Shown here in pieces: positions 312 to 26,524 of a DNA stretch of 36,812 nt. The notes under the pieces are model-generated. The model saw only the letters and a list, made by a program, of their open reading frames with translations. It made no database searches and was not told where the DNA came from. The DNA is from Lachnospiraceae bacterium (GTDB lineage: Bacteria; Bacillota; Clostridia; Lachnospirales; Lachnospiraceae), in assembly GCA_021202635.1 (NCBI GenBank), contig JAJQCQ010000074.1:75890-112701 (forward strand), given 5' to 3'. Each line of letters opens with the position of its first letter. Within the stretch, counting starts at the first letter, position 1. Both the position numbers and the translations under genes were made by a program.

Positions 312-378
312 GCTGTTATACTACGTTTTCACCCCTGACCGGTCAGCAGGTGTGTGGTCGGGTTGCAAACAGCAGTAC
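312..378. repeat. Dispersed palindromic repeat, copy 1
   Basis: This is an intergenic copy of the repeat family seen also at 6966-7022, 12794-12868, 18612-18735 and 26461-26524. Read on the minus strand it has GTACTG, then CAACCCGACCAC, then the CCTGCTG core, GGTCAGGGGTG, and the tail GAAAACGTAGTATAAC. It aligns along its whole length with the 26461-26524 copy, most differences being transitions. It sits between the end of the LtaS-like gene (390) and the start of the partial secreted gene (268). No T-tract follows, so I do not call it a terminator. Confidence 0.6.
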
Positions 379-389
379 TCCGATTCGAT

Positions 390-2603
390 TTACTCCGATG
401 CCCCATCCAGCGTAAAGAACTCATAATAGCGGTTGTCTCCGCCAAAAATATCATTGTATTCCAGAATATTGTAATCATTGATCAACGTAAAATACGGAGA
501 ATCCTCATCATCCAGCTCGTAGAACACACCGTCCGCGCCCCAGTAACCAATGGAATTGATCACGGGAACCTCCTCGCTCAGGTCCAGCAGGTACTCCTGA
601 TAGCCGGTCATGGACAGTCCAAGGCGGTCGGCCATGATGCTGTACAGATAATTCAGGCTGGTCGCCTCGATCGTCTCCTCCTCAATATCATAATTCGCCC
701 AGATGATAAACGGAATCTTGTATTTTTCCATCAGCTCTTCACCGGTCAGATCCTCCTCCGTACCGCCGAGCAGATATTCGTACGCGCCATCCCCGATATC
801 CGGCTGATGATCGCCAAACATCACAATGACCGTCGGCTCCTCGACGTCTTCAAAGTACTCGACCAGCTGCTCAAATGCGTCGTCTGTCGCTTTCACCAGA
901 TTTACATAGATTTCCGCCCTCGTCGTACTGAACCCCGTATTCAGAACCTCAATCTCCATATCCAGGTTCTTCGTATTGGACGAATAGTAACCGCCATGGT
1001 TCTGAATCGTGACGTTGTAGGAAAACAGCGGATTCCCGGAATCCAGATTCTCCTCGTACTCTACGATAATCCGGTCAAACAGAGTCTCGTCGGAAATATA
1101 ATTCCGGATTTTATACGGATAATCAAAATCATCCCGTGTATAGTAGGTGTCAAAGCCAATCTGCGGGTAAACAATATTCCTCCGGTAATTCGTCCCGCGG
1201 TAAGGATGCATCGCCAGCGTATAGTAACCCAGTGAGCCAAGCTGCGATGCCAGGGACGGCAGATTTCCCCGCACAAACAGGTTAAACCCGACCGAAGAGG
1301 TCGGAAGAAAGGCCATCGTATTCCCCGTCAGAAATTCATACTCCGAATTCGGCGTATTGCCGCCAAACACAGAGGAATAAGCTGTACCCTTTATGGTATT
1401 TTCCGTCAGGCTGCGGATAAAAGGCATATAGTCCTCCGACAGCTCCAGGCCGTTGCCAATCTCTGTGTAATCTGCCCAGGACTCATTCATAATAACAATA
1501 AGGTTTGGCGTCGCGGCTGTATCTTCTTCGGACGTGGCTGCCGACGCATCCGCATTATCCGAAGCGTCCGTATCGTCTGAGCTCTCGCTGTCCGGAACAT
1601 CCGAATCCGAAGAGCCGCCTTCCTCCGCCGCGTCCTCTTCCGTCACATAAGGCTCAGCAATCTCCTCCACCGCTTCCAGCGAATACCCATCCGGCTTATC
1701 TACCACCAGATAAAAGCAGGTCGTCAGCGTTGTGAAAATCATATCGTATTTTTTATATCGCAGCTGATGCGTGAACCCTTCCGAGCGGATATCATGATCC
1801 TCCAGAAACGTTGTTTTCCCGCAAAGATAATAATAACCGCCCGCCAGTACAGCCACCAGAGCCAGAAACACTCCACGCGCCGCAAGCGGCATCATCTGCC
1901 CTCTGCGCAGCTTGAAGCTGATGGTGCAGATCAGGAGCGTCAGCAAAATCTCCATGACCATGTACCAGTCCAGTGTATATGTATATTCCGAGGCCACCGC
2001 CGCCGCTGTGCCGATCGAAAACAGATCAGCCGCCGAGATCGCCATGCCGCGAAACGAAATCACGAAGCAATTGACAATTCCAATCACCGCGATCGCCACT
2101 GCATAAATGATCACAGAGAAACGAATGCTGCCGGTGATTCCGTACAGGATTCCCTGCACCAGATACAAAAAAGCAAAGGTGAGCAGAAGCGCAATTTTAT
2201 CCAGTGCGAAAAAATCAATGTTGTATTTATCTGCATTTAAATATAGAAGGGAAAAATAAACCGCGAACGGCGCGACCGCAAACCAGACCCAGGAAAGAAT
2301 GCGGTTCAGCCGATCGCTCATCTCGTTCGTCTCCAGCCACAGGAAAACCAGCAGTGCTGACAAAAACGCGATCCCATAGGTCCTCGCACTCTGCCAGATC
2401 GTCACCCCTCCATCCGCCGCATACATCCCCGGATGGACGCAATAATAGATCAATAAACCCACCGTAAAAAGAATCGGAATCGCCCGAAACAGCTTTTTCC
2501 GATCTTCCGGCAGATGAAGCTTCTCTGCCCATTTCGACATTCTAAACCGTATTCCTCCAAATTCTCCCACACGGAAGCTCTTTCGCCTGCAGTGCAAAAG
2601 CAT
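390..2603 (-). CDS. LTA synthase-like membrane sulfatase-fold phosphoglycerol transferase
   Basis: The product (737 residues) has an N-terminal polytopic membrane half with about seven to eight hydrophobic segments up to residue ~260. A Ser/Asp/Glu-rich linker follows (~320-365), then an extracellular alkaline-phosphatase/sulfatase-fold domain. In that domain the residues expected of the LtaS/MdoB group are all visible: Glu374 in NLIVIMNESW, the nucleophile Thr417 in GGNTPNSEYEFLTG, and Asp598-His599 in FGDHQPD. Known family members transfer glycerol-phosphate from phosphatidylglycerol onto a lipid anchor or glycan at the outer membrane face; the exact acceptor here cannot be told from sequence. 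Two starts are possible. The ATG at 2603 has GGAGGG about 10 bases upstream; the ATG at 2540 (MSKWAEKLH) has GGAGG 13 bases upstream and gives a more typical N-terminus. The acidic linker is longer than in classical LtaS. Confidence 0.88.
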   Translation of the reverse strand: MLLHCRRKSFRVGEFGGIRFRMSKWAEKLHLPEDRKKLFRAIPILFTVGLLIYYCVHPGMYAADGGVTIWQSARTYGIAFLSALLVFLWLETNEMSDRLNRILSWVWFAVAPFAVYFSLLYLNADKYNIDFFALDKIALLLTFAFLYLVQGILYGITGSIRFSVIIYAVAIAVIGIVNCFVISFRGMAISAADLFSIGTAAAVASEYTYTLDWYMVMEILLTLLICTISFKLRRGQMMPLAARGVFLALVAVLAGGYYYLCGKTTFLEDHDIRSEGFTHQLRYKKYDMIFTTLTTCFYLVVDKPDGYSLEAVEEIAEPYVTEEDAAEEGGSSDSDVPDSESSDDTDASDNADASAATSEEDTAATPNLIVIMNESWADYTEIGNGLELSEDYMPFIRSLTENTIKGTAYSSVFGGNTPNSEYEFLTGNTMAFLPTSSVGFNLFVRGNLPSLASQLGSLGYYTLAMHPYRGTNYRRNIVYPQIGFDTYYTRDDFDYPYKIRNYISDETLFDRIIVEYEENLDSGNPLFSYNVTIQNHGGYYSSNTKNLDMEIEVLNTGFSTTRAEIYVNLVKATDDAFEQLVEYFEDVEEPTVIVMFGDHQPDIGDGAYEYLLGGTEEDLTGEELMEKYKIPFIIWANYDIEEETIEATSLNYLYSIMADRLGLSMTGYQEYLLDLSEEVPVINSIGYWGADGVFYELDDEDSPYFTLINDYNILEYNDIFGGDNRYYEFFTLDGASE

Positions 2604-2670
2604 TGATTTAACGCCCTCCGACCTCTTTTCCCGACGGCAGACAGCGCAAAATCACTGCTTTTGAACTTTT

Positions 2671-2738
2671 GTAACCGTTCAGAACAGCACCCGCCAGCAC
2701 ACAGCATAGACCTGCGGCCTGCTGTTCTGAATTGTTAC
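2671..2738. repeat. Second hairpin repeat family, copy at 2.7 kb
   Basis: Left arm GTAACCGTTCAGAACAG (2671-2687) pairs with right arm CTGTTCTGAATTGTTAC (2722-2738), 15 of 17 positions complementary, around a 34-base loop. The same arms, with A-T replaced by C-G at one position on both sides, form the hairpin at 7039-7086. It lies between the pgi terminator and the LtaS-like gene. Confidence 0.6.
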
Positions 2739-2753
2739 GAGCTTTTAAAATCC

Positions 2754-2801
2754 GGCTGCCGCTTAAAAACGCAGGTTTCCTGCTTTCTTTAAACGGCAGC
2801 C
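2754..2801 (-). terminator. Rho-independent terminator of pgi
   Basis: Directly after the pgi stop codon the minus strand forms a 14-bp stem, GGCTGCCGTTTAAA against TTTAAGCGGCAGCC with one G-U pair. The loop contains its own small GCAGG/CCTGC hairpin. The stem is followed by GGATTTTAAAA, a short T-tract. Confidence 0.75.
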
Positions 2802-2809
2802 TCTCTGTT

Positions 2810-4159
2810 TTACAGTCGCTTCAGCAGCTCTTCTCTCTGCTTTTCATAGCCCGGCTTGCCAAGAAGCGCGAACATGTTCTTCTTGTAGCTCTCAACCCCC
2901 GGCTGATTGAACGGATTCACGCCCAGTACATATCCGCTCACACCGCACGCAAACTCAAAGAAGTAAAACAGCTCGCCAAGGAAGAACTCATCCTGCTTCG
3001 GAATATTCACCACCAGGTTCGGCACATTCCCGTCCGTGTGGGCCAGAATCGTTCCGTTCATCGCGCTCTTATTGACAAAGTCTACGGTCTTTCCCGCCAG
3101 ATAATTCAGGCCATCCAGATCCACCGGCTCTTCCCCGATCGTGAGGGTGCATCTGGATTCCTCGATATTCATCACGGTCTCATACATGATACGGCTGCCG
3201 TCCTGGATAAACTGACCCATGGAATGGAGATCCGTCGTCAGATCTACCGACGCAGGGAAGATTCCCTTCTGGTCTTTTCCTTCACTTTCCCCGTAAAGCT
3301 GCTTCCACCACTCTGATACATAATGCAGGCTCGGCTCATAATTTGCCAGGACCTCGACCGATTTGCCTTTTCTGTGCAGAATATTTCGAACTGCGGCATA
3401 CTGAAGGGCGTCATTCTCTTCAAAATCCGCTTCCACCGCGCGCGCTCTGCCGGAAGCTGCGCCCTCCATCAGCTTGTCAATATCCGCACCGCTCACCGCG
3501 ATCGGCAGCAGGCCTACCGCCGTCAATACAGAGAAACGCCCGCCGACGTCATCCGGTACCACAAAGCTTTCATATCCTTCTTCCGTCGCAAGATTCTTCA
3601 GGGCTCCGCGCGCCTTATCCGTTGTCGCGTAGATGCGCTTCGCAGCCTCAGCCTTGCCGTACTTCTCTTCCAGCATCTTCTTGAAAATACGGAAAGCGAT
3701 CGCCGGCTCGGTTGTCGTACCGGATTTCGAAATAATGTTGACCGAAAAATCGCGGTCGCCGATCACTTCGATCAGATGCTGCACATAAGTACTGCTGATG
3801 CTGTTGCCCACAAAGTAGATCTCTGGCGTCTTGCGGATCTCTTTCGATACGTTATTATAGAAGCTGTGGCGCAGAAACTCAATCGCTGCCCGTGCGCCGA
3901 GGTAGGATCCGCCAATGCCGATCACCAGCAGAACCTCGCTGTCGCTCTGGATCTTCTTCGCTGCCTCTTTGATACGGCCGAATTCCTCCTTGTCATAATT
4001 GACCGGAAGGTCAATCCATCCAAGGAAATCGTTGCCTGCTCCCTGTCGGGATAACAGCTCGTCCTTCGCCGCAGCGACAATCTTTTTCATGGATACCAGT
4101 TCATGCTCAGCAACAAAACCGGCAGCCTTTGAATAATCAAAAGAAACCTTACTACTCAT
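2810..4159 (-). CDS. pgi: Glucose-6-phosphate isomerase
   Basis: This enzyme (449 residues) interconverts glucose 6-phosphate and fructose 6-phosphate in the cytoplasm, at the branch between glycolysis, gluconeogenesis and sugar-nucleotide supply. Family motifs are clear: [19 protein letters not shown] near residue 80, the phosphate-binding [13 protein letters not shown] near 145, [14 protein letters not shown] near 210, and [15 protein letters not shown] near 285. The length fits the short bacterial form found in Firmicutes. I chose the ATG at 4159 over the one at 4168 because AAGGAG lies 8 to 10 bases upstream of it. The start codon overlaps a TAA ending an upstream open frame (TAATG), which might couple translation. 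A promoter at 4406-4434 would give a leader of about 240 nt carrying a 37-bp tandem repeat. A terminator follows the gene. Confidence 0.97.
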
Positions 4160-4314
4160 TATCCACATCTCCTTTTATCTGTACTAAATGTCTTTTTCCA
4201 TCGTCCGGAAACTGCGCCCGGCCATTTCACCCGGTATATTTTCCCACTGCTCTGGCCTTCGCCGCATTCCCTGCAGCTGCCGTCCTCAACGCGGTCTCCG
4301 CAGGTTCCCCGCAG

Positions 4315-4388
4315 CTGACCTTCTGACCGCAATCACCGCAGGTCTCCCACGCTGGCCTTCTGACCGCAATTGCCGCAGGTCTCCGCCG
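4315..4388. repeat. Two-copy 37-bp tandem repeat in the pgi leader
   Basis: Units 4315-4351 and 4352-4388 match at 32 of 37 positions; each contains ccttctgaccgcaat and ccgcaggtctcc. More degenerate related sequence lies at about 4252-4314. The unit is not a multiple of three. Read on the minus strand each unit contains TGCGGYRATTGCGGTCAGAA, giving CG-x-CGQK peptides in shifting frames. Confidence 0.7.
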
Positions 4389-4405
4389 ACCTTTACCTCT
4401 TGTAC

Positions 4406-4434
4406 ATTCTAGCAGACCGTCAGGAGTTTCGCAA
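4406..4434 (-). promoter_or_regulatory. Candidate sigma-A promoter for pgi
   Basis: On the minus strand, -35 TTGCGA (4434-4429) and -10 TAGAAT (4411-4406) are separated by exactly 17 bases. Transcription would start near 4399, just past the upstream gene's stop at 4438, leaving a leader of about 240 nt before pgi. Assigned from consensus only. Confidence 0.5.
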
Positions 4435-4437
4435 GCC

Positions 4438-5367
4438 TTATTGCGAAAGAAATTCCGTCAAAACTGCCCGGATCAGCCGCTCCTGCTCTTTTTCATCCAT
4501 CTGCCGCAGCATTTGGCCTGCCCGGTCGGATGCAGAGCGCTCCTCATCCGAGACAGCCGCCTCCTGCATTCCCGCTTTTGCGCGTGCCAGATTCTCTTTC
4601 AGATCACTCATCTCCCTGGCTCCTCTTGCCGGCTCACTTTCTTTCCCCTGCATTCCTTTCGTATTCTTTTTTGTGCGTCTCGCTGATTCAAGACTCGTCG
4701 CCGTTTCGGCTTTTGCCAGGCGTCTCGCGCGGCGTCCTTCTGAGACCGGCACAATTGGCGTCCGCGCGGCCGCGGCCGCTCCTGTTCCCCGAAGAGACGC
4801 ACCCCCGCGGCTCTCTGCCTCATATTCCATTTCCGGCAAGTCCTCTTCGCCGCTATAACTCCCGCTCACACCACCATTTTCCAGAAAATCACTCAGACAG
4901 ATTTCCAGGGAACGGCTCCGGTAGCCGATATCCGCCAGGCCGTACGCAAGCGCCGTCAGAACGACTGCTCCGATTCCCAGCCAGAAATACACATTGCCGT
5001 CCACAATGGCAACTCCGCTCTGCGCACGCACCGCAGACCCCGCAAACGCACACAGCAGGCTGACCACCAGACATCCGCCGCCAATTCGTTCCCAGCTGTG
5101 CAGGCTCATACCCCAGACACGGTATTCCAGCATACTCTTTTGAATCAGAGCATGTACATCCCCCACCCGCTCACTCAAATGGGTACAATATTGAAATCTT
5201 TGCCGTAACTGCTGCAAAAACCGTCCCTCCGCAGTTCCCGTATTTCTTACTTCCCCAAGCAGTCCATCGTAAATCCGCCGCAAAATCACCTGGCTGACTA
5301 CACCCAGCACACAGGCTGCTGCCAGCGCATAAAGCAACACATTTTTTTCCATCAGAAATTGTAACAT
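4438..5367 (-). CDS. Membrane protein of unknown function
   Basis: I do not recognise this protein (309 residues). It begins MLQFLMEKNVLLYALAAACVLG, a membrane segment that acts as a signal anchor. A soluble helical stretch with RRIYDGLLGEV and QQLRQRFQYC follows, then two further membrane segments near residues 95-115 and 130-155. The C-terminal half is charged, Ala/Glu/Arg-rich and probably helical, ending in QERLIRAVLTEFLSQ. The start at 5367 has GGGGGA upstream with about 6 bases of spacing; the open frame extends to 5496 but lacks a better site. It precedes pgi on the same strand, though pgi has its own likely promoter. A trans-membrane scaffold is a guess. Confidence 0.7.
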   Translation of the reverse strand: MLQFLMEKNVLLYALAAACVLGVVSQVILRRIYDGLLGEVRNTGTAEGRFLQQLRQRFQYCTHLSERVGDVHALIQKSMLEYRVWGMSLHSWERIGGGCLVVSLLCAFAGSAVRAQSGVAIVDGNVYFWLGIGAVVLTALAYGLADIGYRSRSLEICLSDFLENGGVSGSYSGEEDLPEMEYEAESRGGASLRGTGAAAAARTPIVPVSEGRRARRLAKAETATSLESARRTKKNTKGMQGKESEPARGAREMSDLKENLARAKAGMQEAAVSDEERSASDRAGQMLRQMDEKEQERLIRAVLTEFLSQ

Positions 5368-5690
5368 ACCATTTCCCCCTTTGATCAGATTCTTTCGACT
5401 CCTCCCGGGAAACGCCATCCAGAGCCTGCCCGTCAGAATTCCCCTCTGACCATCCGCCAGGCTCCTGTCTGCGCTTCCCTTCGCGAATCGAACCAATATG
5501 AAAAAGCTTCACCGGGCGCGGCAGCCCCTCTCGGGACAGACGGAATTCCCCGTCCGCGACGGCGCCATTCACTGCGGCCGCCCTTGCTTTTTTCATTCAG
5601 GCAAAGCCGGCTTTAGCCAGCCTGCCCGTGCGCCAGGAACCCAGAGGCGCTGTGCAGCACAATCCGGATTCCTGTGCGACTTGTGCGCAT

Positions 5691-5718
5691 AGTATAGCCG
5701 GAAAATTTCGGTTTGCAA
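5691..5718 (-). promoter_or_regulatory. Weak candidate promoter upstream of the unknown membrane protein
   Basis: Minus-strand TTGCAA (5718-5713) and TATACT (5696-5691) lie 16 bases apart. It is the best promoter-like pair in the gene-free 5368-5842 stretch, which otherwise holds only the 5771-5795 hairpin. The leader to the start at 5367 would be over 300 nt, which weakens the call. Confidence 0.3.
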
Positions 5719-5770
5719 AGCAAAATCGTTCGACAATTTCTCCATGGAATCTATTCTGAGGTTCAAATAA

Positions 5771-5795
5771 GGTGGTGGAAGCCTGTTCCACCACC
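5771..5795 (-). terminator. Hairpin downstream of mtnN, probable terminator
   Basis: A perfect 10-bp stem, ggtggtggaa against ttccaccacc with a 5-base loop, lies 47 bases past the mtnN stop. The minus-strand tail is TTATTTG, a weak T-tract, so termination is likely but not certain. Confidence 0.6.
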
Positions 5796-5842
5796 TGAGA
5801 GTAATCTTCCGCAATATTCTTTTCCCCTATCCGTACAAACCA

Positions 5843-6544
5843 TCATTTCAGGCGCGCAAGCAGCCCCTCCACGAGCCGCACACAATGCTGCGCTGCCTCG
5901 CGCTCAAAGGTCGCATAATCCATGGAAGCACTGTCGTCAGCCTTATCCGAAATCGCGCGCAGAATCACAAACGGGATTCCATTCAGGTACGCCGTCTGCG
6001 CGATCGCCGCGCCCTCCATCTCCGTACAGCTGCCGCCGAAATTCGCCGTGATCCGGTTTTTCGTCGCCTGATCCGCGACGAACTGATCTCCGCTGACGAT
6101 TCGTCCATGGAAGACCGCGATATCCGGATTTACCTCATGGCATACCCCCTCTGCCAGCCGGGACAGCTCCTGGTCCGCCTCAAAGGAAAATACCTCCATC
6201 TGCGGGATCTGCCCCAGCGGATATCCAAAGTTCACCGCATCCATATCATGGTGCAGCACATCCTTCGAAATCACAATATCCCCAATATCAATCTTTGCAT
6301 CCAGAGATCCCGCCACGCCGGTATTCATCACACAGTCCACGCCAAACTCATCCACCAGAATCTGTGTGCACACCGCGGCATTCACCTTGCCAATCCCGCT
6401 GCGCACTACGACCGCCGGCATCCCGGCCAGCTCTCCCTCACAGAAATGCATCTTCGCTTTCGTGACCTCACGCGTGATCCTCATATCCGCCTTCAGCCGC
6501 TCCACTTCAATCTCCATCGCTCCGATAATTCCGATTTTTTTCAT
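5843..6544 (-). CDS. mtnN: 5'-methylthioadenosine/S-adenosylhomocysteine nucleosidase
   Basis: This enzyme (233 residues) hydrolyses the N-glycosidic bond of methylthioadenosine, S-adenosylhomocysteine and 5'-deoxyadenosine, clearing inhibitory by-products of SAM-dependent methylation, polyamine synthesis and radical-SAM reactions. The N-terminus MKKIGIIGAMEIEVERL carries the family's first catalytic Glu (Glu11). The motifs VVVRSGIGKVNAA, NTGVAGSLDAKIDIGDIVIS, CTEMEGAAIAQTA (substrate-binding Glu) and ILRAISDKADDSA (catalytic Asp) are all present and correctly spaced. The start at 6544 has GGGGAC about 7 bases upstream. It is divergently arranged with the TSCPD gene, and a hairpin lies after its stop. 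Confidence 0.96.
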   Translation of the reverse strand: MKKIGIIGAMEIEVERLKADMRITREVTKAKMHFCEGELAGMPAVVVRSGIGKVNAAVCTQILVDEFGVDCVMNTGVAGSLDAKIDIGDIVISKDVLHHDMDAVNFGYPLGQIPQMEVFSFEADQELSRLAEGVCHEVNPDIAVFHGRIVSGDQFVADQATKNRITANFGGSCTEMEGAAIAQTAYLNGIPFVILRAISDKADDSASMDYATFEREAAQHCVRLVEGLLARLK

Positions 6545-6574
6545 CTGTCTGTCCCCTTTTTCTTTCTTTTACAC

Positions 6575-6603
6575 TTGAATATCTCCGCCAAAAACGATAT
6601 ACT
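6575..6603 (+). promoter_or_regulatory. Candidate promoter for the TSCPD gene
   Basis: TTGAAT (6575-6580) and TATACT (6598-6603) are 17 bases apart on the plus strand, in the 175-bp divergent interval between mtnN and the TSCPD gene. The leader would be about 110 nt. Confidence 0.45.
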
Positions 6604-6719
6604 TACGTGAACCGATGCTTCCGCGCCTCATTTTCGAGTCTCATGGCTGCGGCAGCATCCACGATCACAGGTCATGGTATTGTCCTGTATCCACCCATTC
6701 AGACGAAGGAGGAACCAAT

Positions 6720-6962
6720 ATGGATTACAAACCACAGGGCGTCTGTTCCCAGAACATTCACATTGAACTGGACGGAGACACCATTTCACACGTAGAATTT
6801 CTCGGCGGCTGCTCCGGCAATACACAGGGCGTAGCCCGGCTCGTTGAAGGGATGAAAGCGACCGACGCGATCGCCAGGCTGGAAGGCATCCGCTGCGGAT
6901 ACAAGCCGACATCCTGCCCCGATCAGCTCGCCAAGGCTCTGAAAGTGGCACTTCAGCAGTAA
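6720..6962 (+). CDS. Small TSCPD domain-containing protein (TIGR03905-like)
   Basis: The product (80 residues) starts MDYKPQGVCSQNIHIELDGD and contains the conserved GGCSGNTQGVARLVEG and CGYKPTSCPDQLAKAL segments; the TSCPD tetrapeptide names the family. These small Cys-containing proteins are widespread in Clostridia. The domain is also found at the C-terminus of adenosylcobalamin-dependent ribonucleotide reductases, but the role of the free-standing version is not established. The ATG at 6720 is preceded by AAGGAGG at an ideal distance, so I reject the longer open frame from 6615. A dispersed repeat begins three bases after the stop codon, followed by a strong terminator. Confidence 0.9.
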   Translation: MDYKPQGVCSQNIHIELDGDTISHVEFLGGCSGNTQGVARLVEGMKATDAIARLEGIRCGYKPTSCPDQLAKALKVALQQ

Positions 6963-6965
6963 AGC

Positions 6966-7022
6966 GTTACAGGTCGCACCATGACCCTGCAGCAAGTGCG
7001 TGGTCGGGTTGTGACCAGTAAC
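6966..7022. repeat. Dispersed palindromic repeat, copy 2 (57 bp, complete)
   Basis: The element runs from GTTAC (6966-6970) to GTAAC (7018-7022) and folds on itself: GTTAC-N-GGTC at the left pairs with GACC-N-GTAAC at the right, and the core is CTGCAGCAAGTGCG. Read on the minus strand, GTTACTGGTCACAACCCGAC matches the 18612 copy almost base for base. It begins three bases after the TSCPD stop codon. Confidence 0.7.
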
Positions 7023-7038
7023 AGTAAAGCTGCTTTTT

Positions 7039-7092
7039 GTAACCGTTCCGAACAGCCGCAGACCGCCCGCTGTTCGGAACGGTTACTTTTTT
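7039..7092 (+). terminator. Strong rho-independent terminator after the TSCPD gene (second hairpin family)
   Basis: A perfect 17-bp stem, GTAACCGTTCCGAACAG (7039-7055) with CTGTTCGGAACGGTTAC (7070-7086), a 14-base loop and a run of six T at 7087-7092. The arms are shared with the hairpin at 2671-2738, so the terminator seems to belong to a repeat family. Confidence 0.85.
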
Positions 7093-7222
7093 CAAACGGC
7101 CACATCAGGCGCTGCTTTGCCTGCGCGGGCCGCGCCATCCCGCATATCTCTGATACGCGGCATATCCGCACCGACACAGTAAGGGTCTGTTGCGAAATCA
7201 TACGCCCCTCTTGCGACAGCTT

Positions 7223-8455: not shown

Positions 8456-8510
8456 TACCCCTCACAATCAAACGAAGCTTCTCTACCGTCCTCACAGCTT
8501 TGTCCGGGTG

Positions 8511-8566
8511 CACGGTACAGGCACTCCGTATCTTCCCACACGGTACACGTACTCCGTACCTTCCCG
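8511..8566. repeat. Two-copy 28-bp tandem repeat
   Basis: Units 8511-8538 and 8539-8566 match at 24 of 28 positions; both contain cacggtaca, actccgta and cttccc. It lies about 60 bases upstream of the lipoprotein start codon, within its probable leader or promoter region. Confidence 0.65.
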
Positions 8567-12716: not shown

Positions 12717-12793
12717 AGGATTTCATCCTGAAACCTGTCGCACGAACTGCTCAGTACCTTCACAGTTACGAGGCTTACCCAGCACAGCGTGCA

Positions 12794-12868
12794 GGATGCC
12801 ACCCCGGCGAGGGCTTTTCCCCATATAATATACGTTTTCATATGTACTTCGCAGCAAGTGCGAAGTAC
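12794..12868. repeat. Dispersed palindromic repeat, copy 3 (rearranged modules)
   Basis: A perfect 10-bp hairpin, GTACTTCGCA / TGCGAAGTAC around the loop GCAAG (12844-12868), has the same core and loop as the other copies but a different, fully compensated stem. On the minus strand it is followed by ATGAAAACGTATATTATATG, matching the tail of copy 1, and then by the complement of the ggatgcc-cccggcgagggct module (12794-12815) also present twice at 18664-18723. Confidence 0.65.
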
Positions 12869-12888
12869 TGTCCTCAATCATTACTCGC

Positions 12889-17605: not shown

Positions 17606-17606
17606 C

Positions 17607-18583: not shown

Positions 18584-18611
18584 TTTTCTTTTCCCTCACA
18601 TGTTTTAATTT

Positions 18612-18735
18612 GTTACTGGTCGCAACCCGACCACGCACTTGCTGCGTGGTCAGGAGTTCTCCCGGATGCCTCCCGGCGAGGGCTTATCCCGCATGTAGTA
18701 TGGGATGCCTCCCGGCGAGGGCTGAAAACGTAGTG
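18612..18735. repeat. Dispersed palindromic repeat, copy 4 with a duplicated GC-rich module
   Basis: GTTACTGGTCGCAACCC is followed by the perfect hairpin GACCACGCA-CTTGC-TGCGTGGTC (18629-18651) and CAGG. Two copies of the 21-bp module ggatgcctcccggcgagggct (18664-18684 and 18703-18723) then lead to the tail GAAAACGTAGTGG. In copy 1 the hairpin runs straight into the tail, so here about 70 bp are inserted between the two ends. It sits inside the Tad operon between the first TadE-like gene and the second prepilin peptidase gene. Confidence 0.65.
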
Positions 18736-18752
18736 GAAACAAAAAAACTTCA

Positions 18753-19706: not shown

Positions 19707-19828
19707 AAGCACTCTCCTTCACCTCGCTTCCGCACGTTACCCATACCGTCCTTCTTCCTCTTTTCCCTATACATATGCACAACCATACCCGCTCCATCCT
19801 GTCACCTGTGCGGCGCAATCGCGGTCGC

Positions 19829-21346
19829 TCAGTACGCCATACTTGCCGTCTGGGTAAATGTCAGATCCGTTCCTGATATACCCATAACCACCTTCGGCAG
19901 GCCGAAAAACACCTGGCCGCACTGATAAGTAGCTTTGGCCGCCACCGCTACAATACAATTCTGCACCTGAAAGCTTCCCATCCCGTCCTCTGCGCGCATT
20001 GCCGCCTGAATCAGATCCAGCGCCCGCATTTTCTGATTTGCGAGTGATCCCATATTCAGCAGGATTCTCAGATAATCCGTATAGGAAAGTCCATCGCTTT
20101 TGCCGGAACCGCCCGATTGCAGAATCTCCGTGATATTGCTTAGATTATCCAGCGTCAGCGACCAGGACGAATTGTCCTTTGCCAATGGCACTTTCCCGCC
20201 ATCCAGCAAAATCCGCACATCCACCAGGCTTTCGCCATAGGCCCAGGCCAGCAAGATTGCGTGCTTCGTCGCGGTGGTCAGTGCCGGAATTCCCAGAAAT
20301 CCAGTCAGCGCAGCTGCCAGGGTACCCGCCTGCGAATTCATGGCCGCGTCCTGCGTACAGTAAGCGTAATTCATCCCCTCGCGTATCAGCAAAAGCCGGT
20401 TCACCACATATTTCAGATTCTTCTGATCGGTCGCTTTTCCTCCGAGAATGTACTCCAGCTGATAGTCCAGCGACGCGCCGGCTTCCCCGCTGACAAAATT
20501 CGGAAAATAGCGCACCAGATATTCCCGGAACAGTACATTTGACACCAGGCCGCTGTGCTCTGTCTCTATTTCCAGTGTCCCTCTCCGCAGCGTACTCTTT
20601 GACGGCTGTGAACTCAGTGTTACATTTTTTGCCGAAACCGTTTTGTCCCACGTCACGATTTCCAGTGTGCTCTTCGAACGTAGCTTTGCAATCTCCGTGA
20701 GCGGATTGGACTCTGTCTCTGTAGAAGCTGTCGTGTCTTCCCCTGCTTCCAGGGCTTCTGATTCCAGGGCTTCCAGCTTTTCCTGTTTCTCATCTTCCAG
20801 CTCGGAAAGCTGCCCGTCGCTGCTGCTCTGACTTGTCTCATATGCCTCCTGTTTCTCCTTAATCTCATCTGTACTGTTTGCCAGTGTCAAAAGCTCTTCC
20901 AGCGCAATTACGCCTATGTTGGCCTTCATATAGGAAACCGCCTGCTGATAAAAGGCTTCTCCTTTATTATCAGTCAGCAGCGCATAGCCGGTGATTTCTG
21001 TTTTCTGTACCTCAAGATTCCAGGGATCAAAGGCCAGTGATTTCAGCAGCCCATCCTTCGGGTTGGCATTTTGGGTTACAAACTCTTCAAATCTGCTGTT
21101 CACCGTCTGAATCTGAAAGCTGCCTGCCGAGGCTCCGTCCAGTGAGAAAATCTCATACTTCTCCAGCAGCCCCTTCTCAAACTCACTCAGCAGCGAAAAG
21201 GTGCCCATGCCCGTAATATTCGCCGACTGTGCCTTTGCCCCCTGAACTCTTGCGGATTCCGTAACCGCACAGATCAGAGAAAGGAACAGAATGCAGGCCA
21301 GGCTTAAAAAAACAGTGATTGATCCTTTACAGGCGTTTCTGTTCAT
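19829..21346 (-). CDS. DUF5702-like Tad-locus surface protein
   Basis: The 505-residue product begins MNRNACKGSITVFLSLACIL, a short basic stretch and a TadE/TadG-like membrane anchor, then SARVQGAKAQSANITGMGTF. The extracellular part is long and has a coiled-coil-like, Glu/Ser/Thr-rich section around residues 155-215, followed by a helical region with KATDQKNLKYVVNRLLLIREG and ILLAWAYGESLVDVRILLDG. This pattern and position fit DUF5702, a family found in Tad loci of Clostridia, whose function is not known; it may replace TadG as the large pseudopilin-like component. AAGGAG precedes the ATG at 21346. A 120-base gap follows before the TadE-like gene. Confidence 0.82.
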   Translation of the reverse strand: MNRNACKGSITVFLSLACILFLSLICAVTESARVQGAKAQSANITGMGTFSLLSEFEKGLLEKYEIFSLDGASAGSFQIQTVNSRFEEFVTQNANPKDGLLKSLAFDPWNLEVQKTEITGYALLTDNKGEAFYQQAVSYMKANIGVIALEELLTLANSTDEIKEKQEAYETSQSSSDGQLSELEDEKQEKLEALESEALEAGEDTTASTETESNPLTEIAKLRSKSTLEIVTWDKTVSAKNVTLSSQPSKSTLRRGTLEIETEHSGLVSNVLFREYLVRYFPNFVSGEAGASLDYQLEYILGGKATDQKNLKYVVNRLLLIREGMNYAYCTQDAAMNSQAGTLAAALTGFLGIPALTTATKHAILLAWAYGESLVDVRILLDGGKVPLAKDNSSWSLTLDNLSNITEILQSGGSGKSDGLSYTDYLRILLNMGSLANQKMRALDLIQAAMRAEDGMGSFQVQNCIVAVAAKATYQCGQVFFGLPKVVMGISGTDLTFTQTASMAY

Positions 21347-21405
21347 AGGTTCTCCTTCCTGTGCCGGCCGTCAGCCCTTTTCACCGGCTGGCGCCGTCTT
21401 CCTTT

Positions 21406-21573
21406 TTAAATGCTGTTGCTCTGACTTGTAATTTTACTGAAAATCGTATTTACGATACTGGTGAGCTGCTCTTTGAAGATCAGTACCAGACTGATCAGTA
21501 CGACAAGAATCAGGATAATCTCTACGACTCCTACTCCTTCTTCTTCCTGCAGAAATGCATTCACATGATTCAT
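21406..21573 (-). CDS. Flp1-family type IVb pilin
   Basis: This 55-residue protein is the probable major subunit of the Tad pilus. After a short N-terminus it has LQEEEGVGVVEIILILVVLI: the acidic leader end, a Gly before the cleavage point, and the Val-Val-Glu-Ile run with the conserved Glu of the Flp motif, then a hydrophobic helix and a short polar tail. A prepilin peptidase should cleave after EEEG. The start is the ATG at 21573 with AAGGAGG six bases upstream; earlier in-frame ATG at 21630 is rejected. Most major pilin genes are more strongly expressed than their neighbours; I see no separate promoter here. Confidence 0.93.
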   Translation of the reverse strand: MNHVNAFLQEEEGVGVVEIILILVVLISLVLIFKEQLTSIVNTIFSKITSQSNSI

Positions 21574-21671
21574 CTCTTTCCTCCTTCTGTAAACCAGGCA
21601 GAAAACAGTCTGTCTCTGCCAGATGGCCACCCCGCCGATTACCTGCAGCGGGGGCCGCCGTGAACCGTTAC

Positions 21672-23063
21672 TTAAAAAGACAGAAACGCCGGCACCATAA
21701 GAATCGCGAGGACAATCCCCAGCATCAGAATCATTGGCAGCAGCAGCTTTGTACCTGCCTGCTCCCCGATTTTCCTGGCATGATTCTTGCGATCATTCAG
21801 GGAGGATTCCGCCTCAGCCTCCAGAAGAGCGGTCAGTCCCTTCGCTCCCTTTCTCAGGTTCTGCGAAAGAATCGACCCGATACGAATGTATTCCGGGAGC
21901 TGGCATCGCCGGCCAAAACGCTCATAGGCCTCCGCCTCCCCTATCCCACACTGCATTTCAAAACAGGTATAGGTAATCTCCTCATACACATATCTTGTCC
22001 TCTTCGTCTTTCTCCTTTTTCCGGGTGTCTCTTCCTTACTTTTTGCGTATTCCTCCGCAATTCTCGTAAAAACCCCCCGGATACTCATGCCTGCGCCCAG
22101 CAGCATTGTCATTTTCCACATCAGGTCCGGATAATCCAGAAGCAGCTGATTCTTCCTTTCCTCCGCTCTTTTATGTACCTGATTGTCCATCTGTAAATAA
22201 ACACAGAGTGCCAGAACCAGCGTCAGAGCCAGTACCGAAAGAAACGGATTTTCCGAATCCTCCAGCCAGGTCAGTTTTTTGCCTGCCGCCGACGTTGGCA
22301 GTACAAGCTCCTCCTCATGGCTGCTATCTTCATCCGCCCGCGTCACTTCCTCCCGGATCGCCGCCAGCAGCTGCTCCTCCTCCGTCATGTCCGGCGGAAA
22401 AACATTCACGCAGACACTGTAAATCACTTCCAGGCCGTCACAGTCCAGGATCGCCTGTATTTCCACCAGAGTCCCTTCCGCCTCATCCGCCGAAAGTATG
22501 CTTCCGTCGCCACCGATTACCCCGTACGGAGTGGTCGACCAGCTAACGGTCACCGCTCCATCCTGCAGGTTTTCGGGGAACGTCAGGCTCGTCTGCACAC
22601 AATCCGGTGATGCATTCGCACCCAGAAAAACCGCTTCCAGTTCTTCTAGCGCCAGAGATAAAAACTCCTGTTTCTCCTCGTCTGTATACTTTCTTTCCTG
22701 AATCGTGACCTCCAGCTCTTTCACGTCGTCCTCGTCTTCCACCTGTACCGACAATGCTGTTTTTCTGTCTCCTTCCCCATAGCCGGGCCGCAGCACAGAC
22801 GCCAGTTCACCTGGTGCGCTGCTCTGGCTGTACGCCAGTGCACATACGGCAGTCAGCACAAATCCCGCGCCAAGAATTGCCAGAACCGATGCCATTTTCC
22901 GGACATAATAATTCTTCACCGCCGATTTGCTTCCCGCTGACAGCGCAATCAGCTCCTGCTGCAGCTTCTGCTTCCCCTTTCCCGGCGCATCCAGCCGAAG
23001 CCGTTCCACCAGGAACACACCCATTTTGTTAAAAAAATTCTCAATTTTTCCGACCTGCTTCAT
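21672..23063 (-). CDS. TadC-like pilus platform protein with extracellular insertion
   Basis: The product (463 residues) has a first membrane segment near 58-80 (VLAILGAGFVLTAVCALAYS), then an unusual ~180-residue extracytoplasmic section, a second membrane segment near 275-292, and the T2SS F domain (DYPDLMWKMTMLLGAGMSIRGVFTRIA, RIGSILSQNLRKGAKGLTALLEAE) with a final hydrophobic helix. TadB and TadC form the inner-membrane platform on which TadA acts. The insertion contains VTVSWSTTPYGVIGGDGSIL, similar to atrophied bacterial Ig-like domains of surface proteins; classical TadC lacks it. The start at 23063 has only a weak GAGAGCGG site; an ATG at codon 14 is the alternative. Confidence 0.87.
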   Translation of the reverse strand: MKQVGKIENFFNKMGVFLVERLRLDAPGKGKQKLQQELIALSAGSKSAVKNYYVRKMASVLAILGAGFVLTAVCALAYSQSSAPGELASVLRPGYGEGDRKTALSVQVEDEDDVKELEVTIQERKYTDEEKQEFLSLALEELEAVFLGANASPDCVQTSLTFPENLQDGAVTVSWSTTPYGVIGGDGSILSADEAEGTLVEIQAILDCDGLEVIYSVCVNVFPPDMTEEEQLLAAIREEVTRADEDSSHEEELVLPTSAAGKKLTWLEDSENPFLSVLALTLVLALCVYLQMDNQVHKRAEERKNQLLLDYPDLMWKMTMLLGAGMSIRGVFTRIAEEYAKSKEETPGKRRKTKRTRYVYEEITYTCFEMQCGIGEAEAYERFGRRCQLPEYIRIGSILSQNLRKGAKGLTALLEAEAESSLNDRKNHARKIGEQAGTKLLLPMILMLGIVLAILMVPAFLSF

Positions 23064-23142
23064 TCCGCTCTCATTTCTTTCCGGATAACCACTCCACTTT
23101 TCCCAAATACCAAATCCTTTGCACCCTCACCATTCCTCTTTT

Positions 23143-24156
23143 CTACACCTCAATCCGCACAATGCTCTGTCCCCAGAAATACGCTGCCAGATAAACGGCA
23201 AAGCATACTCCCATCACCGCGACTCCCACCGGAGTCTCATACATCACGTCCAGAAACTCCGGAGAAGACAGCTTCACATACACTAAAATGAACACCGGTA
23301 TCAGACTCATGATGTTCTGCTCCATCACCTTCCCCGCCATGCAGGTTTCAATCTCCAGCATCGTCTCCTGCTTCTGCCGGATACAGGACACCGTGTTCCG
23401 TATGATCGCAATCAGGTCGCCTCCTGTCCGCTTTGCCGTCAGAAATACCTCCGCGAAGCTTAAAATATCCGGCAAATCCGAACGCCTGCCAAAATCCAGC
23501 AGAAGCTCCTCCAGGTTCCGGCTCATCCGCATCTGCGCATCCATCCAGTGAAACTCGCGCACGATCACCGCATCCGGCGAATAGATTTTCTGAAGCTCCT
23601 TCTGAGACTCCCGCAAGGCGTTCTCCGGCGAATATCCCGCCTGCAGCGCGGCAAGCATCAGCTGTATCGCATCCAGAAACTGCCTTGTCAGCTCCCGCTT
23701 CCTTTTCATAATCAGAGAAGCTTTCAGCTGCATCAAAAACAGGACAACCCCCGGCAGCAAAATCAGAAAGGCCCGCAAAGAGCGAAAGAACAAAAAACTG
23801 ACGCACCCGTCCAGCAGTACATAGGCTCCCATATACCGAAGCAATTCAGCTGGAGAAAACGTATATACGGAGTAATCGGTCCCCGGACGATCTCTGGCAC
23901 GGCTATGTCGGCGTCTCCTTCTCCGGCAGACTCCGGAGCGCACAGCTTTACGCCTCTTCTCCGAGTATTCGCGGAGCTGCATCCGTTCACGCCCATTTTC
24001 CGGACGATCACGGTTCTGCACCTGTTTACGCCTTTTCTCCGGATCATTTCCGTCGGAACCTGCATTCAGCTTCCAAGACAAAGCCCCGCCCGTTCCAGCT
24101 TCTGACGATTTTGCAGCTCCTCTTTCTTTTGCAGGCTGCCCATTACCTTCTCGCAC
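23143..24156 (-). CDS. TadB-like pilus platform protein
   Basis: From about residue 93 (DYSVYTFSPAELLRYMG) this is a normal TadB: two membrane segments, a T2SS F domain (LDAIQLMLAALQAGYSPENALRESQ, RRSDLPDILSFAEVFLTAKRTGGDLIAIIRNT) and two C-terminal membrane helices. It partners TadC in the inner-membrane platform. The N-terminus is uncertain. A GTG at 24156 with AGGAGGG nine bases upstream gives 337 residues and a 91-base overlap with tadA, but the added ~90 residues are a highly basic repeat-derived stretch. An ATG at 23982 (MQLREYSEK) gives 279 residues. The extension may be real, or the true start may lie at or after 23982. Confidence 0.85.
   Translation of the reverse strand: MREGNGQPAKERGAAKSSEAGTGGALSWKLNAGSDGNDPEKRRKQVQNRDRPENGRERMQLREYSEKRRKAVRSGVCRRRRRRHSRARDRPGTDYSVYTFSPAELLRYMGAYVLLDGCVSFLFFRSLRAFLILLPGVVLFLMQLKASLIMKRKRELTRQFLDAIQLMLAALQAGYSPENALRESQKELQKIYSPDAVIVREFHWMDAQMRMSRNLEELLLDFGRRSDLPDILSFAEVFLTAKRTGGDLIAIIRNTVSCIRQKQETMLEIETCMAGKVMEQNIMSLIPVFILVYVKLSSPEFLDVMYETPVGVAVMGVCFAVYLAAYFWGQSIVRIEV
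23925..24040. repeat. Three degenerate ~39-bp tandem repeats at the start of tadB
   Basis: On the minus strand units begin at 24040, 24001 and 23962, each starting GGARAAxxGGCGTRAA and containing a TGCxxxxCCG block; lengths are 39, 39 and 38 bp, and a partial fourth (GGAGAAGGAGACGCC) follows. They encode the Arg/Lys-rich N-terminal extension of TadB, immediately downstream of the tadA stop. Confidence 0.6.
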
Positions 24157-25295
24157 AGCTCCGATCCCTCCTCCTCAAATTCATACAGCGGATGCGTCAA
24201 TATCTCGTCCTTCTCACTGTCATACCCCAATATTTCTATAATCTGCAGCACCTTCCTTGTCCGGTCCCGCATCCTGCCGACATGTACAATCAGATCAATC
24301 CCGGAAGCGATCTGTCGGCGCACGGCCTGCAGCGGAATCTCCATCCCCATCAGCACCATCGTCTCGATCCTGGAGAGCATATCCTGCGGACTGTTCGCGT
24401 GACCTGTACTGATCGAACCGTCATGCCCGGTATTGAGCGCCTGCAAAAGGTCAATCGCCTCGCTTCCGCGAATCTCACCGACCAGGATGCGATCCGGACG
24501 CATACGCAGACTGCTCTTGAGCAAATCCCTTATCGTCACCTGCTTTTCGCCCTCCGCGTTCGCATTTCGCGCCTCCATACGCACCAGATTTTCCACGCCC
24601 TGCAATTGCAGCTCCGCGTTATCCTCAATCGTGATAATCCGTTCATCCTTCGGAATGTAATTCGACAGCGCATTCATAAAAGTCGTCTTGCCGGAACCCG
24701 TTCCGCCCGATATAAAGATATTGTACCCGGCACAGACCACTGTCTTCAGAAAATCCACGGCCTCCTGTGTGACGGTCCCCCACCGGATCAGCTGATCCAT
24801 CAGAATCGGATTGTCCGGAAATCGCCGGATCGTAATCACCGGTCCATTCAGCGCCACCGGCGGCATGACAATATTGACTCTGGCTCCGTTATCCAGCCTG
24901 GCGTCCACAATCGGCGTCGATTCATTCACCATCCGGTTACACTTGCCGACAATCTGCTGCGCGATATCCTCCAGCCGCTCCTTCGTGCCAAACCTTTTCT
25001 CCCAGCGCGTCAGCTTTCCATCCCGCTCCACGTAGATTCCCTCCGTACCATTCACCATAATTTCCGTGACGGTATCGTCGTCAATCAGCTCCTGCAGGAT
25101 ATCCAGCTTCCGCACAGAATTGAAAAGCTCCTGGCGCAGATTGATTCTCTCACCGAGCCGTATGTAATATTCCATCCCTGATTCCAGAATCAGATCGTCA
25201 ATATTCTGGTAAATCTCCTCATCCTGAAGCTCCCGTGTCCCTTCCAGGTTATCCAGCAACTTCTTGCGCATACTTGAAAATCTCTGCTCATCCAT
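24066..25295 (-). CDS. tadA: TadA/CpaF-family pilus assembly ATPase
   Basis: The product (409 residues) is the secretion ATPase that powers assembly of the Tad pilus from the cytoplasmic side. An N-terminal domain (ELIDDDTVTEIMVNGTEGIYVERDGKL, DARLDNGARVNIVMPPV) precedes the RecA-like domain. There the Walker A ISGGTGSGKTTF (Lys203), the Asp box ERIITIEDNAELQL, the Walker B RILVGEIRGSEAIDLLQAL and the His box GSISTGHANSPQDML are complete. The ATG at 25295 has GAGGAG seven bases upstream; the open frame extends to 25373 into the preceding gene. It lies between the TadZ-like and TadB genes as in other Tad loci. Confidence 0.96.
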   Translation of the reverse strand: MDEQRFSSMRKKLLDNLEGTRELQDEEIYQNIDDLILESGMEYYIRLGERINLRQELFNSVRKLDILQELIDDDTVTEIMVNGTEGIYVERDGKLTRWEKRFGTKERLEDIAQQIVGKCNRMVNESTPIVDARLDNGARVNIVMPPVALNGPVITIRRFPDNPILMDQLIRWGTVTQEAVDFLKTVVCAGYNIFISGGTGSGKTTFMNALSNYIPKDERIITIEDNAELQLQGVENLVRMEARNANAEGEKQVTIRDLLKSSLRMRPDRILVGEIRGSEAIDLLQALNTGHDGSISTGHANSPQDMLSRIETMVLMGMEIPLQAVRRQIASGIDLIVHVGRMRDRTRKVLQIIEILGYDSEKDEILTHPLYEFEEEGSELCEKVMGSLQKKEELQNRQKLERAGLCLGS

Positions 25296-25373
25296 TGTTC
25301 TTCTCCTCAGTTTGCAAACATCCCTTCCTCTGGCCCCGGTACTCCTGCCATCCCATTTTCCCTGCTCTGTCAA

Positions 25374-26390
25374 TCATCCGTTTTCTCCTTCCTTTTCCCA
25401 CAGCAGTCTGCGGACAAAGCTTCCCATCTCTCCCCACACCAGCTGCTGCGTCAGCTCTCCGCCGTCTCTCTGAAGCGGCTGTACCGGCGGATGAATGCAA
25501 AGCGTTTTCTCCTGTACTTCCTCCATGTCCAGCATGCGCAGAAGGTGCTCATACTGCTTCATTTTTGCCTGCGAAATCATATCATCCTGAACCGGCATGT
25601 AGATCCGGTCACACTCTTTCAGAATCCGGAATAAATCATCCACCTGTTCGCTCAGATCCAGAATGATCACATCATACTCCCGGAAATCCATCACCTCCTT
25701 CAGAAACGCCAGCCATTCCTCGCCCGTCACATCGCGCACATCCGCCGGGGAAAGTGCCGGAGGGATATATTCCAGCTCATGAAAGGTCTGAATCACGGAA
25801 TTAATTTTATAGACCAGTCCGCCTTCCTTCTGTCTGGAAAAATAAATCAAATCCGAAAGATCCATGCGGTATTTGACCTGAAACAGCTCCTCAAACCCGG
25901 AATATTCCTCAAAATTCAGATAAAGCACCTTCTTCGTCTCAGCCAGAATTTCCCCCAGAGCCAGCGCGAAGGAAGTCTTTCGGGTGCGTCCGATCGGGGA
26001 GTATACTCCATACAGCTTTGTCTTTCTGGCTCCAAGCGAAAGAATATGCGGCTGTGGATGATCCTGCACGTAATATTCCATCACCTCAGACAGAATGTCG
26101 TCTGAGGACTGGTATTTATAGACCAGAGGATATCCCAGATCCGAAATCTGTTCCCCTTCTGACAGAATAATCGTCCGGCTGATCGGCAAATCCCGTATCT
26201 CATTGCACATCGCCCGTGTCGAAATCAGCAAAATCTCAATCTCATGTTCTCTGGCGAATTTCTCCAGGCTTTCGACATTTGTAAACGCCTGTACCTCGAA
26301 AGGAGTCGTCTTCCGCTCGTTCAGATATTCTGTAAGATTACACGCGTACGAAGCCTCCAGGTCACAAACCGCAAATATACTTTTTTTCAT
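25374..26390 (-). CDS. TadZ/CpaE-like MinD/ParA-fold protein
   Basis: The product (338 residues) has an N-terminal receiver-like domain (KSIFAVCDLEASYACNLTEYL to ~115) and a C-terminal MinD/ParA-like ATPase domain, the layout of TadZ/CpaE, which helps place the Tad machinery in the cell. The P-loop region reads YSPIGRTRKTSFALALGEIL: the Lys-Thr pair (Lys138) is kept, but the glycines of the usual GGxGKT are replaced by Arg, so ATP binding may be altered. The later YDVIILDLSEQVDDLF and DRIYMPVQDDMISQAKMKQYE match the family. The ATG at 26390 has GGAGGT four bases upstream. It begins downstream of a dispersed repeat. Confidence 0.85.
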   Translation of the reverse strand: MKKSIFAVCDLEASYACNLTEYLNERKTTPFEVQAFTNVESLEKFAREHEIEILLISTRAMCNEIRDLPISRTIILSEGEQISDLGYPLVYKYQSSDDILSEVMEYYVQDHPQPHILSLGARKTKLYGVYSPIGRTRKTSFALALGEILAETKKVLYLNFEEYSGFEELFQVKYRMDLSDLIYFSRQKEGGLVYKINSVIQTFHELEYIPPALSPADVRDVTGEEWLAFLKEVMDFREYDVIILDLSEQVDDLFRILKECDRIYMPVQDDMISQAKMKQYEHLLRMLDMEEVQEKTLCIHPPVQPLQRDGGELTQQLVWGEMGSFVRRLLWEKEGENG

Positions 26391-26460
26391 ACAGACCTCC
26401 AAATTTTTTCATTTACTGTCAGCAATCTTTTCCCGCTTTTCTTTCATATCTTTGCCCGCA

Positions 26461-26524
26461 GCGTTACCCTGCGCTTTCGCCCCTGACCACGCAGCAGGCG
26501 CGTGATCGAGGTGTAAACAGTAAC
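26461..26524. repeat. Dispersed palindromic repeat, copy 5
   Basis: It runs from GCGTTAC (26461) to CAGTAAC (26518-26524). On the minus strand it reads GTTACTGTTTACACCTCGAT, then CACGCGCCTGCTGCGTGGTC, AGGGGCGAAAGCGCAGGGTA and ACGC. It aligns with copy 1 position by position, differing mainly by transitions. It lies inside the Tad operon between the first prepilin peptidase gene and the TadZ-like gene. Confidence 0.65.

Follow-up and report, generated by a model that had tools for sequence, protein, structure and literature searches.

Miniature transposable elements with a common hairpin layout in a Lachnospiraceae genome, and IS66-type transposases as their probable movers

Dispersed palindromic repeats in the genome of a Lachnospiraceae bacterium (GenBank assembly GCA_021202635.1), first noticed in a stretch of 36,812 nucleotides (contig JAJQCQ010000074.1, positions 75,890 to 112,701; hereafter the window), invite comparison with several described systems of short bacterial repeats. 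Bacterial miniature inverted-repeat transposable elements (MITEs), such as QMITE1 of Coxiella (39-400 bp), are non-autonomous, carry terminal repeats and target duplications and include variants down to tens of bp; the review passages that describe them give 50-500 bp as usual, quote 39 bp and make no mention of IS66 (PMC10969869). A Cardinium MITE is, in the passages that describe it, not IS66-derived (PMC9769881). The BOX elements of Streptococcus pneumoniae (67-637 bp) consist of two end modules, between which an internal module is either absent or present once to several times (boxA-boxB(n)-boxC); they possess terminal repeats, target duplications and predicted RNA stem-loops, and are confined to a few close species (PMC3049150). 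With respect to autonomous elements, ISDge4, which belongs to the ISBst12 group within the IS66 family, is described with one open reading frame (ORF), the ends GTGACTACTCAGCA and GTAACTGCTCAGCA and an 8-bp repeat (PMC12898284), and 8-bp repeats are likewise described for IS66 in Frankia (PMC11946415).

The repeats of this gut-type bacterium are MITEs, that is, non-autonomous DNA transposons, and they most probably constitute several related families with a common hairpin layout, for which DDE transposases from the ISBst12 group of IS66 would act in trans. They share with that group ends of the GTRACTRYTCAG type, an 8-bp duplication and, in a sister genome, an element with an IS66-type transposase, and differ from it in having no transposase and interiors made of hairpins. 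Unlike the MITEs described so far in the passages cited above, they extend down to 27 bp with exact duplications. The likeness to BOX is one of building plan, and here several end-types occur on one layout. Repetitive extragenic palindromic (REP) elements and bacterial interspersed mosaic elements, with their REP-associated tyrosine transposases (RAYTs), are also short intergenic palindromes in high copy, whereas the present repeats have 8-bp duplications, terminal repeats and a DDE-type candidate partner. None of the literature matches listed dealt with MITEs of the IS66 type in Lachnospiraceae.

Repeat families and their target duplications

The original prediction, made from the window, described at least five intergenic copies of one REP/MITE-like element or family of mobile RNA hairpins, and proposed as checks a genome search, a covariation model, a comparison of orthologous sites for empty targets and duplications, and a look for a Y1-type (TnpA-REP) transposase. 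The window lies in a draft genome (G000) of 3.98 Mb that is divided among 106 contigs and is 97.5% complete. A BLAST search of it with one repeat copy gave at least 62 matches (40 of 106 first-look candidates scored), and a covariance model of a 45-nt core, built from 23 copies, gave at least 145 core matches with E<=1, the scoring having covered 150 of 1,627 first-look candidates. On these numbers, which exceed chance, the family is real and genome-wide. For the core of the first family, 78 rows fall below 1e-6 and represent at minimum 76 distinct places by hand count, two rows being the other strand of the palindrome.

All five predicted copies hold the described repeats, but two families had been fused. 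The first, F1, comprises the copies at 312, 6966, 18612 and 26461, which have the common core GTTACTGGTCACAACCCGACCACGCA...TGCGTGGTC. Its ends are of the GTTACTGGTCACA type, and the complete element spans 167-169 bp with the termini GTTACTGGTCACAACC and GTTACAGGTCACACC; this length holds for 22 of 25 end pairs, the remainder being 148, 218 and 238 bp. The second family, F2, to which the copy at 12794 belongs (stem GTACTTCGCA/TGCGAAGTAC; true span 12743-12884), has the ends GTAACTGTTCAG/GTAACTATTCAG, is mostly 134-135 bp long and runs in the order GTAACTGTTCAGTACCTTCACAGTTAC, a large hairpin around ATCGCTNCGCGAT, TACGTTTTCA, a hairpin with a GCARG loop and TGTCCTGAATAGTTAC. A pattern search allowing up to 3 mismatches recovered 21 F2-type hairpins in the genome (none with the reversed control pattern), and at least nine full-length F2 elements are present there (40 of 109 candidates scored). 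Shortened F2 forms of 52-102 bp that have duplications occur among the sequences examined. A further palindromic family with GTAACCGTTCAGAACAGC ends, F3, occurs in the window at 2671-2738 and 7039-7086, and F4 is a 143-bp MITE in the sister genome G311 with the ends GTTACTATTCACAGCT / GTTACTATTCACGG and a 7/8 duplication. The elements thus range from 27 to about 240 bp, have terminal inverted repeats that start GTTAC... or GTAAC... and are too short for a transposase gene.

Terminal inverted repeats, fixed 8-bp target duplications and empty sites in relatives (L176, L240, L237 and L238) are the evidence for MITEs, and to this extent the original REP/MITE-like reading was correct. The census of end pairs covered 235 partly overlapping sequences, about 1.35 Mb, with identical copies counted once. 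Exact 8-bp duplications flank 16 of the 25 distinct F1 end pairs and 48 of the 71 distinct F2 end pairs, with 5 and 13 more, respectively, at 7/8. The 148-bp F1 pair has an exact duplication; those of 218 and 238 bp pair neighboring ends (0/8 and 2/8). When flanks of different F1 end pairs were combined as a control, 18 of 3,422 pairings agreed in 8/8 letters, some of them where nested ends of one element have a flank in common. Short F1 forms that end soon after GTAGTGG are also duplicated (e.g., L026 and L029).

A list of nine rows yielded one empty site counted as clean: an F2 copy in L176 (G311) is flanked by a doubled GAAAGAAT, and L089/L175, at 96% identity, have a single GAAAGAAT. Among the other rows, L114 offers 69 aligned bases, L028 matches another place in the genome of the window at 82%, and L038 and L110, being nested or self matches, were not counted. 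Window copies also vary in presence among sisters. G312, with 96% identity across 15.6 kb of the region, lacks the copy at 26463, and the junction there is not clean. The 6966 copy is also in G312, and was not found at its place in G306 and G318, G316 having other DNA there; the 18612 copy is in G312 with a longer module and was not found at its place in G316, G318 and G306. The further relatives give no clean junctions at 18612 and 6966 because their DNA is too different.

The window itself contains the following elements:

315-378, reverse strand: F1, short degenerate form, with the tail ACTACGTTTTC, the hairpin core and an outer end; no clear duplication
2671-2738, unstranded: F3 palindromic element, ends GTAACCGTTCAGAACAGC / GTAACAATTCAGAACAGC, duplication GAACTTTT/GAGCTTTT (7/8)
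6966-7022, reverse strand: F1, 57-bp form, outer repeat, GCAAG-loop hairpin and outer repeat; exact 8-bp duplication AGTAAAGC at 6958-6965 and 7023-7030
7039-7086, unstranded: F3-like perfect palindrome with 18-bp arms; no clear duplication
12743-12884, forward strand: F2, degenerate end palindrome at 12743-12769, hairpin at 12844-12868 (GTACTTCGCA/TGCGAAGTAC) and end TCATTAC; part of the 39-bp module stands in place of the big hairpin, and TACGTTTTCA is present
18612-18739, forward strand: F1 short form in the Tad cluster, with one partial and one whole 39-bp module; 3' boundary uncertain (18735-18739)
18683-18721, forward strand: 39-bp module (CTTATCCC...GAGGG) within the preceding F1 copy
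26463-26524, reverse strand: F1 short form in the Tad cluster
33023-33039, reverse strand: lone F3-type end, a remnant

Two copies lie within the Tad cluster, as originally stated, and no transposase was found among the 20 window ORFs scanned.

Candidate transposases

Judging from ends and duplication length, the elements are most likely moved by an IS66 transposase of the ISBst12 type. The F2 ends resemble the printed ends of ISDge4 (PMC12898284) and, as in that group, go with an 8-bp duplication. Moreover, locus L188 of the sister genome G306 contains a 2,267-bp element with the ends GTTACTATTCACGGTCGT and GTTACTATTCACAGCTGT and the exact 8-bp duplication ACTATTTT. No other end pair longer than 300 bp in the roughly 1.35 Mb examined has a duplication that reaches 7/8. 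It encodes a 520-amino-acid IS66-type protein, which scores above the cut-off for PF03050 (41 vs 23.1 bits) and below it for NF033517 (140 vs 180), and, in a difference from the single ORF described for ISDge4 (PMC12898284), a second product of 102 amino acids without a convincing family match. The F4 ends are identical to those of the L188 element over 14-16 letters. All three genomes with close relatives of the L188 transposase carry F1.

We envisage that the L188 transposase, or a now absent relative of it, would recognize the ends of F1, F2 and a 27-bp unit discussed below, would cut or copy the elements and would join them to the target with an 8-bp stagger; short, mostly intergenic insertions would presumably be tolerated and so accumulate.

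Several observations weigh against this assignment. No IS66 transposase (PF03050) was found in the draft genome that contains the window, and hence no autonomous IS66 element with the same ends. F1 occurs in 15 of 47 genus genomes, this one included, in a search whose query was offset by 42 bp (42 bp of flank in, the last 42 bp of the element out), so that the counts lean on the H1-H2 part of the element; only 6 of the 14 F1-bearing sisters have an IS66 transposase, two of the 14, G310 and G315, showing F1 as weak matches only. Close relatives of the L188 transposase are present in 3 of the 47 genomes, plus one at 27% identity. The ends of the L188 element match those of F1 in only 11-12 of 13 letters, and the 1.35 Mb yielded no autonomous partner with F2-type ends. 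The transposase searches covered IS66 (PF03050) and Y1, IS66 being the only family with 8-bp duplications among them. Furthermore, 10 of the 71 F2 and 4 of the 25 F1 end pairs have flanks alike in at most 6/8 letters, and the window copies at 315, 12743, 18612 and 26463 are without a clean duplication.

Ten IS66 loci were scanned for ends: L188 has both, L185 and L190 have one GTTACTATTCACA end each, and F1, F2 or F3 ends were not found at L180, L186, L181, L182, L187, L189 and L183. Other long end pairs were rejected as autonomous elements, namely L102 and L108, which enclose ordinary-looking genes, and L070, L101 and L088, which lack a 7/8 duplication.

Hairpin layout and the 27-bp unit

F1, F2 and F4 agree in the order of their parts (an end palindrome, a large hairpin with an inner hairpin, ACGTKTTC, a GCARG-loop hairpin and the other end) and differ in ends and stems; for F4 the layout is seen in one full copy and two right halves. 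A 39-bp module, CTTATCCCACACGAAGTGTGGGATGCCACCCGGCGAGGG, is present in 0 to 2 copies in the F1 elements inspected; the 21-bp GC-rich module of the original prediction does come and go, as part of this larger unit. The module also occurs within F2 (L048), and F2 lengths of 174 and 175 bp correspond to 135 plus 39 or 40. In L016 it stands outside any element, as a tandem of about two and a half units. Given that the 18612 copy of G312 has a longer stretch of the module, the modules change quickly, and hairpin modules (the 39-bp unit and the large hairpin) would presumably be gained and lost via recombination at short repeats.

The stems vary in a manner that largely preserves pairing. Among 118 distinct hits, which have 35 different 6-bp stems between them, a mean of 4.71 of 6 positions pair, against 3.45 on re-dealing (highest of 1000: 4.03). 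Across 40 F2 copies, pairing is kept in 98.8% of cells, and changes on both sides are seen in 9 of 32 pairs (55 cells); the covariation of 0.123 compares with 0.057 in shuffles (0/500 as high) and 0.026-0.065 in slid controls. The corresponding figures for 26 F1 copies are 98.8%, 5 of 33 pairs (16 cells) and 0.072, against 0.028 in shuffles (0/500 as high) and 0.004-0.029 in slid controls. Such covariation counts are inflated by related copies, and the structures were drawn from the same alignments. The predicted compensation of stems is accordingly seen both between and within families, although many changes among 23 aligned F1 cores merely disrupt the stem.

Template switching in palindromes, by which a change in one arm is copied into the other by mutation, is a serious alternative to selection as the source of the paired changes, and we place it only a little short of an even chance. 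It fits the mismatches of the wobble type in the internal helices of F2, which show no strand skew (6 GU/UG vs 8 AC/CA cells); given this lack of strand preference, covariation alone does not establish selection at the RNA level. It also fits an F2 copy in L248 (482-616) in which the double change GTACCTGT/ACAGGTAC in the end palindrome keeps pairing and arises even where the outer repeat is spoiled. Template switching gives no account, however, of the GCARG loop, ACGTKTTC and the order of parts, which are kept across three end-types despite differing stems, although this argument is weakened by the third end-type being represented by the one full copy and two right halves just mentioned, and by the selection of most hits with a pattern in which the loop and ACGTTTTCA are fixed.

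The smallest form found with an exact duplication is a 27-bp palindrome, GTAACTGTTCAGTACCTTCACAGTTAC, which constitutes the first 27 bp of F2 and also occurs alone with its own 8-bp duplication. Counting up to 4 substitutions, there are 110 copies, 78 with the F2 body and 32 without it. Of these single units, 8 have exact 8-bp duplications, 3 are at 7/8 and 21 are lower; the same test never exceeded 5/8 for the 78 with an F2 body. The loci examined from the genome of the window include seven single 27-mers, three with exact duplications, one of which was already counted. Comparison with relatives identifies these sites as 27-bp insertions. At L240 all five aligned relatives are empty, the target being present once as ATTTTTCT or ATTTTTCC. 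Of the seven relatives aligned at L237, six have AGAAAGGT once and G313 carries the 27-mer; the window genome's own copy at this site has an imperfect duplication (6/8). At L238 G312 has a single CTTTTATC and no 27-mer. At L241 and L239 the 27-mer is common to this genome and G312. The alignments left out two L237 and five L239 loci that had one flank or a distant second piece, L240 matches in six more genomes and the L237 match in G312; that at L241 involves G312, the other relatives being unalignable.

Both ends of the unit look like transposase ends, and we therefore consider that it probably moves by itself, so far as can be judged from sequence. Alternatively, single 27-mers could be remnants of F2 that lost the last 108 bp by AGTTAC x AGTTAC recombination, leaving the original duplication in place. 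F2 does carry the 27-mer at its end together with both AGTTAC repeats (one at the palindrome end, one at the F2 end), the shortened F2 forms with duplications offer a parallel, and 21 of the 32 single units have at most 6/8 duplication letters alike. Yet the aligned occupied sites are all of 27 bp and never of the 135-bp form (G312 at L241 and L239, G313 at L237, and the L101/L070 pair), and this absence of an occupied orthologous site with F2 favors movement of the 27-mer. Furthermore, the emptiness of L240 in five aligned relatives and of L238 in G312 means that neither the F2 insertion nor its exact deletion could be old, and single 27-mers are nearly as frequent in the window genome as full F2 elements (7 vs 9, both lower bounds). 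We regard the remnant origin as possible, with a likelihood clearly below even.

A broader proposal, about evenly balanced in our estimation, is that the 27-bp palindrome, as two abutting transposase ends, is the mobile element itself, and that the larger elements add to it a conserved chassis of three hairpins, which has persisted with altered stems under three or more different end-types. To our knowledge, the palindrome would then be the smallest DNA-transposon unit.

Two side observations concern such short forms. In the L238/L025 region (contig C77 of the window genome), the 27-bp unit and a nearby F1 copy are both absent from G312. A 27-bp F1 counterpart, GTTACTGGTCAGGGTGTGACCTGTAAC, made of two fused F1 ends and with a 7/8 duplication, occurs in L044 (1950-1976).

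Gene context, distribution and implications

A further possibility, unlikely in our view, is that the hairpins are kept for acting on the transcripts of neighboring genes as terminators, stabilizers or processing sites, that is, as a structured RNA useful to the host and spread by transposition. Consistent with it, covariation is strong also in hairpins other than the terminal repeats, F2 is oriented against genes (30 of 36 tandem gene pairs, p = 7e-5), and RNA folding relative to shuffles gives z-scores of -7.4 and -7.2 for two F2 copies and -5.0 for the window copy at 6966. Against it, F1 lacks an orientation bias (6 copies in the same direction, 8 in the opposite one), folding of the window copy at 18612 exceeds that of shuffles by little (z -2.0), the wobble-type mismatches favor neither strand, one F2 copy scanned has no consensus terminator, and the presence of copies varies among close sisters. 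The bias of F2 could also stem from insertion relative to replication. F2 lies opposite to the intergenic skew in 53 of 67 cases and to the majority coding strand in 51 of 67. The orientation bias may thus reflect either selection or replication-linked insertion, which the data do not separate; the orientation counts for the 27-mer are small (3 to 7). Rfam at gathering scores matched only tRNAs in the window, and at E<=1 one F2 copy had no match and one F1 copy reached 22 bits against a threshold of 90.8. The mobile RNA hairpins of the original prediction are accordingly upheld in their covariation, and not as regards the level of mobility, which is that of DNA.

The REP origin that had also been proposed, with movement by a Y1 (TnpA-REP/RAYT) single-strand transposase, is rejected as extremely improbable: the repeats are indeed short intergenic palindromes in high copy and the genome has one Y1 match, but exact 8-bp duplications with matching empty sites contradict this origin, and at the Y1 locus (L235) the matches to F1 ends and the TACGTTTTCA segment are no more than scattered and partial, while F2 and F3 ends, the GCARG hairpin and the 39-bp module have no match there. 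REP elements of the RAYT type are mobilized by Y1 transposases, leave no duplications of this kind and flank the Y1 gene. The L235 locus, on contig C87, is the sole Y1 match, an open frame of 161 amino acids, and the repeats are not associated with it.

Crude ORF calls, in which ORFs make up 85% of the DNA, place 0 of 19 F1, 5 of 59 F2 and 2 of 14 single 27-mers inside ORFs; the F2 figure falls to three when a stricter ORF length is applied. A scan of 299 family genomes, nearly all of them apart from the window's own being one per genus, detected the pattern ACGTTTTCA-N(5-16)-CGCAGCARGTGCG in a single genome, that of the window. In a named sequence collection the pattern occurs in at least 101 stretches; among the 80 listed, 79 are from uncultured Lachnospiraceae, Clostridiales or Clostridiaceae, and the one from Pontixanthobacter we take for a chance hit.

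The assignment to IS66/ISBst12, F2, the 39-bp module, the layout under three end-types and the 27-bp unit go beyond the original prediction. For annotation, the elements add many unrecognized insertions between genes, also inside operons such as Tad. If a DDE transposase indeed moves the 27-bp unit, models in which two separate ends are bent into a synapse would need revision, because both ends would share less than three helical turns, and the unit would allow the requirements of an IS66 transposase to be probed on a very small substrate. Finally, the presence of a hairpin chassis under differing ends raises the question of whether the interiors of MITEs, usually deemed junk, are under selection.

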